Shown: positions 40,574 through 46,934 of the stretch, piece after piece
Layout: the number at the start of each line of letters is the position of its first letter
How positions within the stretch are numbered: position 1 is the first letter of the stretch
NCBI GenBank assembly: GCA_945874535.1
Contig: CAMCGZ010000017.1
Location: 1-50,885 of the forward strand
Direction of reading: 5' to 3'
DNA: 50,885 nucleotides
Source: Bdellovibrio sp. ZAP7
GTDB taxonomy: Bacteria; Bdellovibrionota; UBA1018; CAIMNF01
Notes under the pieces: generated by a model
The model's database searches: none
What the model was told of the DNA's origin: nothing
Seen by the model: only the letters and a program-made list of their open reading frames with translations
Program-made: the position numbers and the translations under genes

Positions 40574-41473
40574 ATGATTCGCGCATCGATCGATCTCGGT
40601 ACCAATACCTGCCTCCTCCTTGTGATCGAAGGGGATCGGGTGCTTCACGATGAGTCGCGGGTGGTCCGTCTCGGCCAAGACGTGGCCTGGACCGGCCGTT
40701 TGCATCCGGAAGCCATGGAGCGTGCGCGCAATTGCCTGCAAGATTATGCGCAGATCGCGTCCAGTCTCGGGGTTCCGGCCGGAGATATCCTTGCTGTGGC
40801 CACCGCGCAGGCGCGCGATGCGGCCGATGCCAAGCCATTCTTCAACGATTTGGAACAACAACTCGGATTGCGCTTCCGGATTCTCTCGGGTCAGGAAGAA
40901 GCCCGCGCCACGTTCTTAGGGGCGGCTGTGCCCGGCTCCGATCCTACCCGCATGGTCGTGATGGACATCGGCGGCGGGAGCACCGAGTTGGTGGCCCACA
41001 CCGGGGGCGAGAGTCTTCCGATCGGTGCCGTCAAGATCACCGAGAAGTTTCTGCATTCGGATCCGGTCACGGACGCCGAGTTCTGGGCAGCTGAAGATGC
41101 AATCGATCGCGAGATCTCAAAAATGACCTCCTGGCGTAAAGGGTTGGAAGTGGTGGGAGGGCGGCCTGAATTCACCGCCGTCGCCGGCACGGCCGTCACC
41201 TTGGCCATGCTCCAGATGGGGTTGACCGAATTCAAAGCGAGCGATATCGACGGATTCCTCATCACACGGGGCGATGCCCACCGCCTGGTCGAAGAGTTGA
41301 AGTGGCGAACGGTGGAAGAACGGAAGGCCATGCCCGGCATGGAGCCGAAGCGTGCGGATGTGATCCTGGCCGGAGCCTTGATCTTCTGGCGTGCCCTGGA
41401 AGTCCTCGACTTCCCGGTCGCGAGGATCTCGACTCGCGGTCTCCGCTACGGAGTGCTTAGCGGAGCACTCTGA
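40574..41473 (+). CDS. Ppx/GppA phosphatase family protein
   Basis: A 299-aa ASKHA-fold phosphatase. The first phosphate loop is SIDLGTNTCLLLVIEGD, the second MVVMDIGGGSTELVAH, and FRILSGQEEARATFLG and EVVGGRPEFTAVAGTAVTLAML are family blocks. It corresponds to the minimal two-lobe form (about 300 aa) without the HD or C-terminal extensions of E. coli Ppx/GppA. Such enzymes hydrolyse polyphosphate or pppGpp; which one is not decidable. AGGGG lies before the ATG. Its last 17 bases overlap the convergent small gene. Confidence 0.93.
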   Translation: MIRASIDLGTNTCLLLVIEGDRVLHDESRVVRLGQDVAWTGRLHPEAMERARNCLQDYAQIASSLGVPAGDILAVATAQARDAADAKPFFNDLEQQLGLRFRILSGQEEARATFLGAAVPGSDPTRMVVMDIGGGSTELVAHTGGESLPIGAVKITEKFLHSDPVTDAEFWAAEDAIDREISKMTSWRKGLEVVGGRPEFTAVAGTAVTLAMLQMGLTEFKASDIDGFLITRGDAHRLVEELKWRTVEERKAMPGMEPKRADVILAGALIFWRALEVLDFPVARISTRGLRYGVLSGAL

Positions 41474-41666
41474 GGATCTGCTGGGCCAGCTGCGGATTGC
41501 GCGCGTGGATCCGCTTCAGCATCGATTGGCGGAAGGCCGGATCCGCATGGCGGAGCATCTGGACCACTTGCTCGAGTCCGTTGATCTTGATTCCCTCTTC
41601 CGGAGGCATCATCTCAGGACGGCGGTTGGATTCGAGCTGTTCCATGGATGGATATTTCTGATTCAT
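41457..41666 (-). CDS. small helical protein, FliG-like pattern, unknown function
   Basis: A 69-aa protein. The C-terminal 40 residues (VVQMLRHADPAFRQSMLKRI, then HARNPQLAQQILRVL) have the helix-turn-helix spacing seen in FliG-type ARM-like motifs, where a short helical pair with DP and NPQLAQQI recurs. This is a weak pattern resemblance only. It overlaps the coiled-coil gene upstream by four bases, so the two are translated together. It also overlaps the convergent phosphatase gene. A sigma-28-like promoter upstream of the pair points to motility. Confidence 0.65.
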   Translation of the reverse strand: MNQKYPSMEQLESNRRPEMMPPEEGIKINGLEQVVQMLRHADPAFRQSMLKRIHARNPQLAQQILRVLR

Positions 41667-42121
41667 ACGTTTTTGCTCCTTTGGGCTTTCCGGGCGGCTT
41701 CTTTTTCGAATTGTTTTTCGAGCTCTTCAGAGGCTTTCTTGTAATAAGACTGGAGCCGGGAAATCTGTTCGTCCCCGATTCGCTTTTCTTGCTCGACCCT
41801 GCGTTGGTACTGGGTGTGAATTTTATCGGCTTCGCGCTCGCCTTGTTCGCGGGATTCCTGGACCAGAGTCTGGTTGCGCTCACGCACCAAAGCCAATTTG
41901 CGATCGAGGGATTCGGCTTCTTGTGAAATGCGGACATCGTAGTCCTTGCGCATCTGCTGAAGCTGCTGGTCCTGGTTCTGGACCATGCCGGCGAGTCGGT
42001 CGCGGTGGCCATCTTCTTTGTCCTTCACTGTCGCTTCCTGATCCCGCTCGAGTTGGGTCAGGTACGCCCGGTAGCGGATCTCATCGACGCCATTTCCGGC
42101 TCCATTCATGGAACTTGCCAT
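41663..42121 (-). CDS. coiled-coil protein, FliJ-like in form, unknown function
   Basis: A 152-aa protein, nearly all a charged coiled coil after residue about 15 (for example RYRAYLTQLERDQEATVKDK and RRVEQEKRIGDEQISRLQ), rich in Gln, Glu, Arg and Lys. Length and composition resemble FliJ/YscO-type stalk proteins, but I see no diagnostic motif. A GGAGG lies about five bases before the ATG. It heads a two-gene unit with the 69-aa protein. A possible sigma-28 promoter (42189-42215) lies about 60 nt upstream of the start. Divergent from zapA. Confidence 0.75.
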   Translation of the reverse strand: MASSMNGAGNGVDEIRYRAYLTQLERDQEATVKDKEDGHRDRLAGMVQNQDQQLQQMRKDYDVRISQEAESLDRKLALVRERNQTLVQESREQGEREADKIHTQYQRRVEQEKRIGDEQISRLQSYYKKASEELEKQFEKEAARKAQRSKNV

Positions 42122-42188
42122 AAGGCCTCCAGCCAGCGCGACTTCGTGTCCCGCGTCTCTTCATTTTCGCGCTGTGAAAAGCGCTTCA

Positions 42189-42215
42189 CAATCGGCAAAA
42201 AATGCCTATACTTCG
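42189..42215 (-). promoter_or_regulatory. candidate sigma-28 (FliA) promoter of the coiled-coil gene pair
   Basis: On the minus strand CGAAGTAT (five of eight to TAAAGTTT), exactly 11 bases, then GCCGATTG (six of eight to GCCGATAA). The predicted leader is about 60 nt, similar to that of flagellin in this window. Confidence 0.4.
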
Positions 42216-42237
42216 AGAAAGAGGGAGCGTCAAATTT

Positions 42238-42519
42238 TTGGAGACACGGGAATTCTCGATTTTGGGACAAAAGCTGGTGATTTCCGATCCGGATCAGGCC
42301 GAGCTGGCCTCTCATGCCATCCAGATCGTCAACGCGAAGGTCGACGAGATCCGCGCTCAAAAACCGCTCTGGGGTCCGAATCAAATTTCGGTTCTGGCAC
42401 TCCTTGAAATCGCCGGGAATCTGGTCAGCGAAAGAAAGTCGATCGATGCCTACCGTGAGGAGCTCGATCGCCGGTGTTCGGATCTCATGGGCGAATTATC
42501 CAGCCTCCCGCCCGCATGA
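42238..42519 (+). CDS. zapA: cell division protein ZapA
   Basis: A 93-aa ZapA-like protein that binds and bundles FtsZ filaments. The start region (EFSILGQKLVISDPDQAEL) and VNAKVDEIRAQKP are typical, followed by a long helix ending DRRCSDLM. The TTG at 42238 is preferred: GAGGGAG lies ten bases upstream and it gives the usual short N-terminus. An ATG at 42202 (105 aa) has no Shine-Dalgarno and falls inside the divergent promoter candidate. Overlaps the next gene by four bases, as zapA and the cyclo-ligase gene are neighbours in many bacteria. Confidence 0.85.
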   Translation: METREFSILGQKLVISDPDQAELASHAIQIVNAKVDEIRAQKPLWGPNQISVLALLEIAGNLVSERKSIDAYREELDRRCSDLMGELSSLPPA

Positions 42520-46097: not shown

Positions 46098-46934
46098 TCA
46101 TCCGATCAGCTTCAGTGCTTGCTGGGGTTGGGTATTGGCTTGAGCCAGAACAGCGGTACCGGCTTCTCTGAGAATTTTGTTGCGCGCGAGATCGCTGGTT
46201 TCAGATGCGACATCCGCATCCTTGATGCGGCTATTGGCAGTGCTCAGGTTCACTTCGCTGGTTCCCAGGCCGGAAGCAATGGTGGTGAATCGGCTTTGAA
46301 GGGCGCCCAGGGTGGCCCGGTACGAGCTGACGCGCTCGAGTGCGAAGTCGAGGTCGGCCAAATGCTCGCGAGCAGATTCCTTGCTCGAAAAATCGAGCCC
46401 GTGCAATCCGAGGTGATCCGAATTGAAATTGAATCTTCTTCGATCGACACCGAGTTGGTTGTGTTCGTCGGCATGGATGCCTACCTGAACGTCAAACCCG
46501 GGCCAAGAACCGCCGCCATTCAGGATTTTCTTGCCGTTGTATTCGGTGGTGCTCACCATGCGGTCGATCTCAGACTTAGTTTGCTGGACTTCGCGGTTGA
46601 TCATTCGGCGCTCGGTATCGCTGATAGTATCTGAAGAGGCTTGAATTCCGAGTTCGCGCATCCGGATGAGACTGTCACTGATGGTTTGGACCGCACCTTC
46701 CGCGACTTGAACCATGGAGATGCCGTCATTGGTATTTCTGAGCGCAGCCTGGGTGGAGCGGATGTTGGCATTCAGAGAAGTGGAGACAGAAAACCCCGCG
46801 GCGTCGTCGCCTGCCTCGGCGATCCGGCTGCCGGTCGACAAATGGCTCATCGTCTTATCTTCAGCGGTTTGGGTCCGCTCAAGATTACGATGGGCATTGA
46901 TCGCTGAGGTGTTGGTACTGATCCGCATTCCCAT
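46098..46934 (-). CDS. fliC: flagellin
   Basis: A 278-aa flagellin with D0/D1 terminal domains conserved: MGMRISTNTSAINAHRNLER, LSTGSRIAEAGDDAAGFSVS, RELGIQASSDTISDTERRMI at the N-side and SSYRATLGALQSRFTTI, VASETSDLARNKI and VLAQANTQPQQALKLIG at the C-side. The surface-exposed centre is very short and His/Arg-containing. Flagellins of similar size occur in Bdellovibrio. It forms the filament outside the cell. A sigma-28-type promoter lies about 75 bp upstream. No other flagellar structural gene is in the window. Confidence 0.95.
   Translation of the reverse strand: MGMRISTNTSAINAHRNLERTQTAEDKTMSHLSTGSRIAEAGDDAAGFSVSTSLNANIRSTQAALRNTNDGISMVQVAEGAVQTISDSLIRMRELGIQASSDTISDTERRMINREVQQTKSEIDRMVSTTEYNGKKILNGGGSWPGFDVQVGIHADEHNQLGVDRRRFNFNSDHLGLHGLDFSSKESAREHLADLDFALERVSSYRATLGALQSRFTTIASGLGTSEVNLSTANSRIKDADVASETSDLARNKILREAGTAVLAQANTQPQQALKLIG

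Follow-up and report, generated by a model that had tools for sequence, protein, structure and literature searches.

What do two small overlapping genes encode when neither product has a recognised family, how are they expressed, and are they connected with the flagellum? The genes lie on the minus strand of the window, by which we mean the whole stretch of DNA analysed (50,885 nt; contig C17 of a 2.4-Mb genome). For neither protein was a match above the curated cut-off found in Pfam or NCBIfam, and the literature searched, mostly without subscription papers, held no description of such a pair. An earlier note had described a translationally coupled pair at this place, and two overlapping ORFs sharing ATGA are what we found. 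The note interpreted the first as a FliJ-like coiled coil and the second as a FliG-like protein, set both under a candidate sigma-28 promoter, and suggested a flagellar or chemotaxis accessory function. Herein, the coiled-coil protein is called CC and the small protein S; the features of the locus are collected in Table 1.

Table 1. Coordinates of the genes and of the actual or candidate elements of the CC/S locus in the window.
Feature	Position	Strand	Basis or remark
Gene 1, CC: 152-aa coiled-coil protein	41663..42121	minus	ORF
Gene 2, S: 69-aa stand-alone FliG ARM_C-like protein	41457..41666	minus	ORF
ATGA stop-start overlap, CC/S	41663..41666	minus	sequence; four-base overlap in 25/30 loci
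S residues 25-67, homologous to FliG ARM_C, three helices	41466..41594	minus	hhalign, AlphaFold2, Foldseek
Candidate sigma-70-like promoter TTGTGA-N17-GAAAAT	42163..42191	minus	conservation; weak -10 here
Palindrome GGCATTTTTTGCC (GGCA-N5-TGCC), candidate operator just 5' of -35	42194..42206	minus	conservation
Sigma-28 candidate of the earlier note, CGAAGTAT-N11-GCCGATTG	42189..42215	minus	11/16 positions, shuffle p 0.10; judged no sigma-28 promoter

A match to CC was found in 50 out of 58 related genomes. The loci of the best CC matches were fetched (30 loci, L004-L033, the window's own included), and in all 30 an S-like ORF of 59-83 aa lies directly 3' of CC; the S-like frame of L033 is known as an ORF only and gave no tblastn match. 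Among the three closest loci (L004-L006), dN/dS was 0.02-0.06 for CC and 0.05-0.14 for S, while in comparisons with L007 dS was saturated and yielded no ratio. Besides the start, positions G30, Q33, L38, A41, D42, F45, R46, S48, R52 and L60 of S are invariant in the 30 orthologues. Since CC has a match in most of the related genomes, S stands behind CC in every locus, and dN/dS is low, the two are not chance ORFs. By these comparisons, CC and S are a real conserved pair, inherited together and under purifying selection, and the ATGA overlap would couple their translation. Two other families of the window's class also have the short pair, as seen in three loci (L142-L144).

The pair lies outside the flagellar cluster. 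On its 5' side, zapA, a 5-formyltetrahydrofolate cyclo-ligase gene and ymdB are divergent from it, and on its 3' side ppx/gppA is convergent. Within flanks of 1.5 kb, ppx was in view in 12/30 loci and zapA in 16/30. Paralogues of CC with no S-like neighbour were seen at L155:3956-4381, L156:3981-4406, L158:3993-4424 and L161:1416-1844, in genomes that carry the pair too.

Is CC related to FliJ? AlphaFold2 predicted CC as one unbroken helix spanning residues 10-151, with a mean pLDDT of 91.5. The Pfam FliJ profile was absent from the best 25 of the 28 rows obtained for 30 CC members at E up to 0.1, and it gave no match to the window's CC at E up to 1; the true FliJ of the genome matched the same profile at 4.8e-11. 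An HMM comparison of CC with this FliJ by hhalign returned a probability of 0.1. FliI and FliJ are encoded together on contig C6 (L066:12599-14501), in the flagellar cluster, and the CC gene is not beside fliI. With nothing from Pfam, hhalign or the predicted structure in its favour, a FliJ relation of CC was rejected, and the FliJ-like part of the original interpretation falls with it. The Pfam rows for CC included Apolipoprotein, in 14/30 members (best 3.9e-6), and FBF1; these, and a V-type ATP synthase subunit E row below the cut-off, were taken as coiled-coil bias.

The likeness of S to FliG, in contrast, was borne out. A profile of the 30 S orthologues found three places in its own genome, namely S itself, a 141-aa FliG_C paralogue on contig C10 (1.0e-6) and a complete FliG on contig C6 (6.9e-4). 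FliG-sized frames in other genomes matched this profile at about 2e-6. In the HMM comparison by hhalign, residues 25-67 of S aligned with residues 195-237 of the genome's own FliG (43 residues; probability 85.7, E 5.4e-6), whereas the control, S against the CC profile, reached a probability of 0.2. The FliG segment falls in the interval from the GG linker to the MFVF motif, and we take it to be the ARM_C motif. This assignment is in line with the accessible part of PMC7355467. The AlphaFold2 model of S has confident helices at residues 30-40, 43-56 and 58-68, and when it was compared with the PDB by Foldseek, ranks 1-10 were all FliG, at probabilities of 0.91-0.99 but E values of 0.58-1.6.

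Domain profiles and sequence-only searches were less specific. A sequence-only search of the PDB placed a designed repeat protein (E 0.042) ahead of FliG (0.47), and no Pfam FliG domain was found in any of the 30 S members at E up to 0.1. The NCBIfam fliG profile matched 11/30 members (best E 0.0058), none of which reached its curated cut-off of 226.7 bits; toxin_SdpC matched 7/30 (0.0081) and rad23 6/30 (0.0024), and all of these matches are weak. XPC-binding appeared in 18/30 members, below the Pfam cut-off. XPC-binding/Rad23 was considered as the nearest relative of S and rejected, being below the cut-off and with an XPC-binding structure standing 11th in Foldseek, behind ten FliG chains. 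The three-domain architecture FliG_N/FliG_M/FliG_C is absent from S, whose 69 aa hold the ARM_C motif alone; S is therefore a FliG-derived fragment protein, not a FliG. Judged by profile alignment and predicted fold, it belongs to the FliG family in shortened form, with nothing but the ARM_C helical motif retained.

The paralogue on contig C10 is a second FliG-derived gene of this genome (L064:1228-1653, minus strand), in which an ARM_C-like start is joined to FliG_C (Pfam 1.5e-26). Similar short FliG_C-like genes were seen in L149, L151, L152, L153 and L166.

A longer form of the partner is found in f15, another family of the same phylum. At the ppx locus of this family, a coiled coil of about 140 aa, found by the CC profile, is followed by a protein of about 143 aa. 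Three of these long partners were tested and all three matched Pfam FliG_C above the curated cut-off (3.9e-15, 8e-16 and 2.6e-13). For one of them the ten best PDB matches were FliG chains, the first at 5.9e-9, and NCBIfam fliG matched at 1.9e-11 over profile positions 198-322, below the cut-off; the long partner of L147 scored 43.9 bits against the cut-off of 226.7. Because the FliG_C match was significant in 3/3, the f15 partner is read as ARM_C plus FliG_C. On this domain evidence, ARM_C is followed by a FliG_C-like domain in f15, and ARM_C alone is left in the window's order. In the largest set of f15 loci, ppx was in view beside 32 of the 39 pairs. At L194:5035-5505 a gene with a cyclic-nucleotide-binding domain (Pfam cNMP_binding 6.8e-17) stands between ppx and the pair, and ORFs of similar size occupy that place in several other f15 loci.

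Does the pair go with flagella? Genomes were called flagellate when a FliM or FlhA gene was found. FliM was present in 256 out of 290 genomes of the phylum; the remaining 34 included 5 with FlhA. The f15 sample comprised 96 genomes: FliM was found in 89 and FlhA in one more (G274), so that 90 counted as flagellate, and 6 had neither gene. The S profile matched 84/90 flagellate and 1/6 non-flagellate f15 genomes (p 4.3e-5). When the six non-flagellate genomes were collapsed to three genera, the comparison became 84/90 versus 1/3 (p 0.019); these p values account only partly for shared descent.

One genus supplies four of the non-flagellate genomes, which are 99, 98, 94 and 88% complete; these were inspected at the ppx locus, where ppx is present with no pair beside it (L188-L191). 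In G199 (L192) the FliG-like gene is kept and the coiled coil is absent, and G264 (L162; 88% complete) keeps an intact pair; both are without FliM and FlhA. Of the six flagellate genomes missed by the profile, four proved to have the pair on inspection, which added to the 84 gives 88/90. In the other two, ppx was not found (G132) or was represented by a distant relative only, without the pair (G254). Among f15 genomes without a profile match, the pair was thus seen on inspection in 4/6 flagellate versus 0/5 non-flagellate ones (p 0.06). In f15, the pair is mostly lost or broken where FliM and FlhA are absent.

Direct inspection of flagellate f15 genomes found the pair in 56/59 (sets of 6/6, 7/8, 4/5 and 39/40), with the FliG-like gene of L146, which runs into the contig end, counted as present. 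The pair was missing in G254, and in G192 and G163, both of which have the FliG-like gene only. Of the 59, 54 had been picked for their profile match, 40 of them by going down the match list; what the count demonstrates is therefore that a profile match is accompanied by the coiled coil, and it says nothing of the pair's frequency. A Fisher test of 56/59 against 1/6 (p 3.9e-5) was discarded as biased by the same selection.

The S profile had no match in 99 of the 256 FliM-positive genomes of the phylum, at least four of which have the pair; the pair is therefore not universal to flagella. Since the profile missed four flagellate genomes that have the pair, a genome with "no match" may still carry the pair somewhere. 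In the window's class, FliM is present in 56/58 genomes, and the two without it (G037 and G052) have FlhA; with FliM so widespread, its co-occurrence with the pair is uninformative on co-loss. In the family that we take to be the one containing Bdellovibrio, the S profile frames among the matches listed were FliG-sized (about 345 aa), and L172, the one read, is FliG. The accessible part of PMC12827227 names FliG among the genes for flagella in a Bdellovibrio and in a Bacteriovorax and mentions no short forms. Beyond f15 and the window's class, the evidence for a flagellar association is thin. Of the accessory function first suggested, flagellar or chemotactic, what stands is a flagellar association in one family, f15.

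The promoter region was analysed for the sigma-28 control postulated in the earlier note. The CGAAGTAT-N11-GCCGATTG element is present, but it ends 67 nt before the ATG, not 60. It agrees at 11/16 positions, and since 10% of the shuffles of the 200 nt upstream score as well, the match alone is no better than chance. Its -35 half (AAGT) varies within the window's genus and across the 30 loci; xCCGAT occurs in 9/30 loci, all in the window's genus, and among 21 further loci GCCGATTG is found in L159, from another family. Upstream of six of the nine flagellin-like genes, the best sigma-28 scores were 9-14, with 14/16 for the window's flagellin. A strict TAAA-N14-16-GCCGATA pattern had no match anywhere in the genome. 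With the 30 loci, the six flagellin upstream regions and the genome-wide pattern taken together, sigma-28 control of the pair was rejected. As to the flagellins themselves, the genome has eight strong matches (46098-46934 in the window; contigs C3, C11 and C16), three of them in tandem on C11, plus a weaker one on C1.

A different layout is conserved at the same place. GGCA-N5-TGCC, with at most one mismatch, occurs in 23/30 loci, against 1.1 expected by shuffling, and 17/30 have a -10 that fits NATA[AC]T at 18-45 nt before the start (2.0 expected). The distance from the end of the palindrome to the end of the -10 is 31-33 nt in the 14/30 loci with both elements (31-32 in 13). The -10 reads GATAAT or CATAAT in many relatives, while the window's own GAAAAT is weak. 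Because sigma-70 scores in single loci are mostly not significant, the case for a sigma-70-like promoter rests on conservation; the palindrome was not seen in the f15 loci or in L142-L144. In this comparison of upstream regions, a putative sigma-70-like -10 at a near-fixed distance from the conserved palindrome accounts for the bases of the sigma-28 candidate. The pair is probably expressed from a promoter of the sigma-70 type with a regulator at GGCA-N5-TGCC, not from a sigma-28 promoter.

A STAS-domain gene on contig C16 (L109:1077-1445, minus strand; Pfam STAS 2.4e-8) has a promoter layout like that of the pair, GGCAAATGTTGCCGATTG followed by TTGTCG-N17-CATCCT, and the two may share a regulator. 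A large GGCA-N5-TGCC regulon was considered and rejected, as GGYA-N5-TGCC-NN-TTG had 3 matches in the genome versus 2 for the reversed control; a scan of 137,552 bases for the palindrome plus a -10 gave 4 versus 2.6 in shuffles and showed no regulon. The divergent zapA (42202-42519), as its start is placed at 42202, overlaps the conserved promoter block. Judged by eye from the homologous start of its relatives, zapA may begin at a TTG near 42237, in which case the block would read TTCACA-N16-TATACT towards zapA on the plus strand.

What, then, may the pair do? We propose, with a probability of roughly 0.4, that it is a flagellar-rotor accessory module in which S, as a mimic of ARM_C, docks on the middle domain of FliG. 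According to the accessible part of PMC7355467, the assembly of FliG rings is attributed to intermolecular stacking between FliG_M and the ARM_C of the neighbour, for which a domain swap is cited, and in some FliG crystals this stacking occurs within one molecule. A free ARM_C fragment is an obvious competitor for the FliG_M site, and S is therefore proposed to dock there. The free motif of S would bind FliG_M of the true FliG, at the surface normally held by the ARM_C of a neighbour. Docked S could cap FliG, control ring assembly or subunit exchange, or tune switching, while the rod-like CC could tether S to another part of the motor or to the pole, or could dimerise it. The more specific version is doubtful: a two-protein rotor module of the Bdellovibrionota in which the free ARM_C mimic competes for FliG_M, gating ring polymerisation, exchange or switching, and a rod of about 140 residues fixes it to the motor or pole.

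A flagellum-linked accessory need not touch FliG_M at all. The ARM_C-like motif could be a generic helical adaptor, serving polar placement, export-gate chaperoning or stator regulation, with CC as the working part. An association with flagella requires no contact with FliG, CC is both conserved and longer than S, and the invariant residues F45 and R46 of S face T and E in the aligned FliG. However, the best structural matches of S are to the ARM_C of FliG, and in f15 a FliG_C domain is fused to ARM_C, so that we consider a generic adaptor possible but rather unlikely. The neighbouring genes raise another question, namely whether the pair acts in cell division or in phosphate or nucleotide metabolism. 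The divergent zapA and the convergent ppx recur at the frequencies given above, ppx is beside the pair in f15 too, and the pair persists in one genome with neither FliM nor FlhA (L162). Yet zapA was not found beside the f15 pair by phmmer with the window's ZapA, and ppx, being convergent, is not co-transcribed with the pair and stays where the pair is gone (L188-L191). Since, moreover, the pair is present in many flagellate f15 genomes and missing from the non-flagellate genus, we regard a non-flagellar function as improbable.

The original suggestion, read as a late, sigma-28-dependent pair of a FliJ-like export coiled coil with a FliG-like partner, now seems very improbable indeed. The flagellar cluster does contain, next to an FlhF-like gene, a gene for a sigma-70-family factor (L067:9477-10490), which we take to be FliA, and the promoter element is present where it was placed. 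It is opposed by the shuffle result, by the variable -35 half, by the restriction of xCCGAT to one genus and by the sigma-70-like layout; CC showed no relation to FliJ, and the true FliJ is in the flagellar cluster.

If the more specific version is correct, the contrast between ARM_C plus FliG_C in f15 and ARM_C alone here would show how evolution dismantled FliG into a regulator. A naturally occurring ARM_C fragment, expressed on its own and associated with flagella, would offer a direct handle on the control of FliG ring stacking in predatory bacteria and their relatives, and the rotor-accessory reading suggests a function for two genes without a Pfam or NCBIfam match above a curated cut-off.

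How does the pair compare with known systems? CC resembles FliJ (PF02050) in being a short, highly charged helical protein, but no profile links the two, and CC is predicted as one helix. FliJ is a two-helix antiparallel coiled coil. Borrelia FliG1 (PMC7225975) is likewise a second FliG homologue, additional to the FliG on which flagellar synthesis depends; as described in the accessible part of that paper, it is tied to torque generation and is no ARM_C fragment with a coiled coil, and on this description it is set apart. MotV and MotW of Vibrio cholerae (PMC8789113) are, like the proposed module, lineage-restricted motility regulators, of which MotV has a genetic link to FliG and FliM; in the accessible description they differ in being membrane-bound and HubP-targeted. 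The short FliG_C proteins of the phylum, such as that of L064, share the ARM_C-like start and are found by the S profile, but they have kept FliG_C, and no coiled-coil match lies beside the gene in L064 or L151. The closest comparison is with FliG itself (TIGR00207; Pfam FliG_N, FliG_M, FliG_C): S aligns with its ARM_C and the predicted fold matches FliG in the PDB, whereas S has 69 aa instead of 338, is without FliG_N, FliG_M and the torque domain, and is encoded by a gene that is coupled to that of a coiled coil and stands apart from the flagellar cluster.
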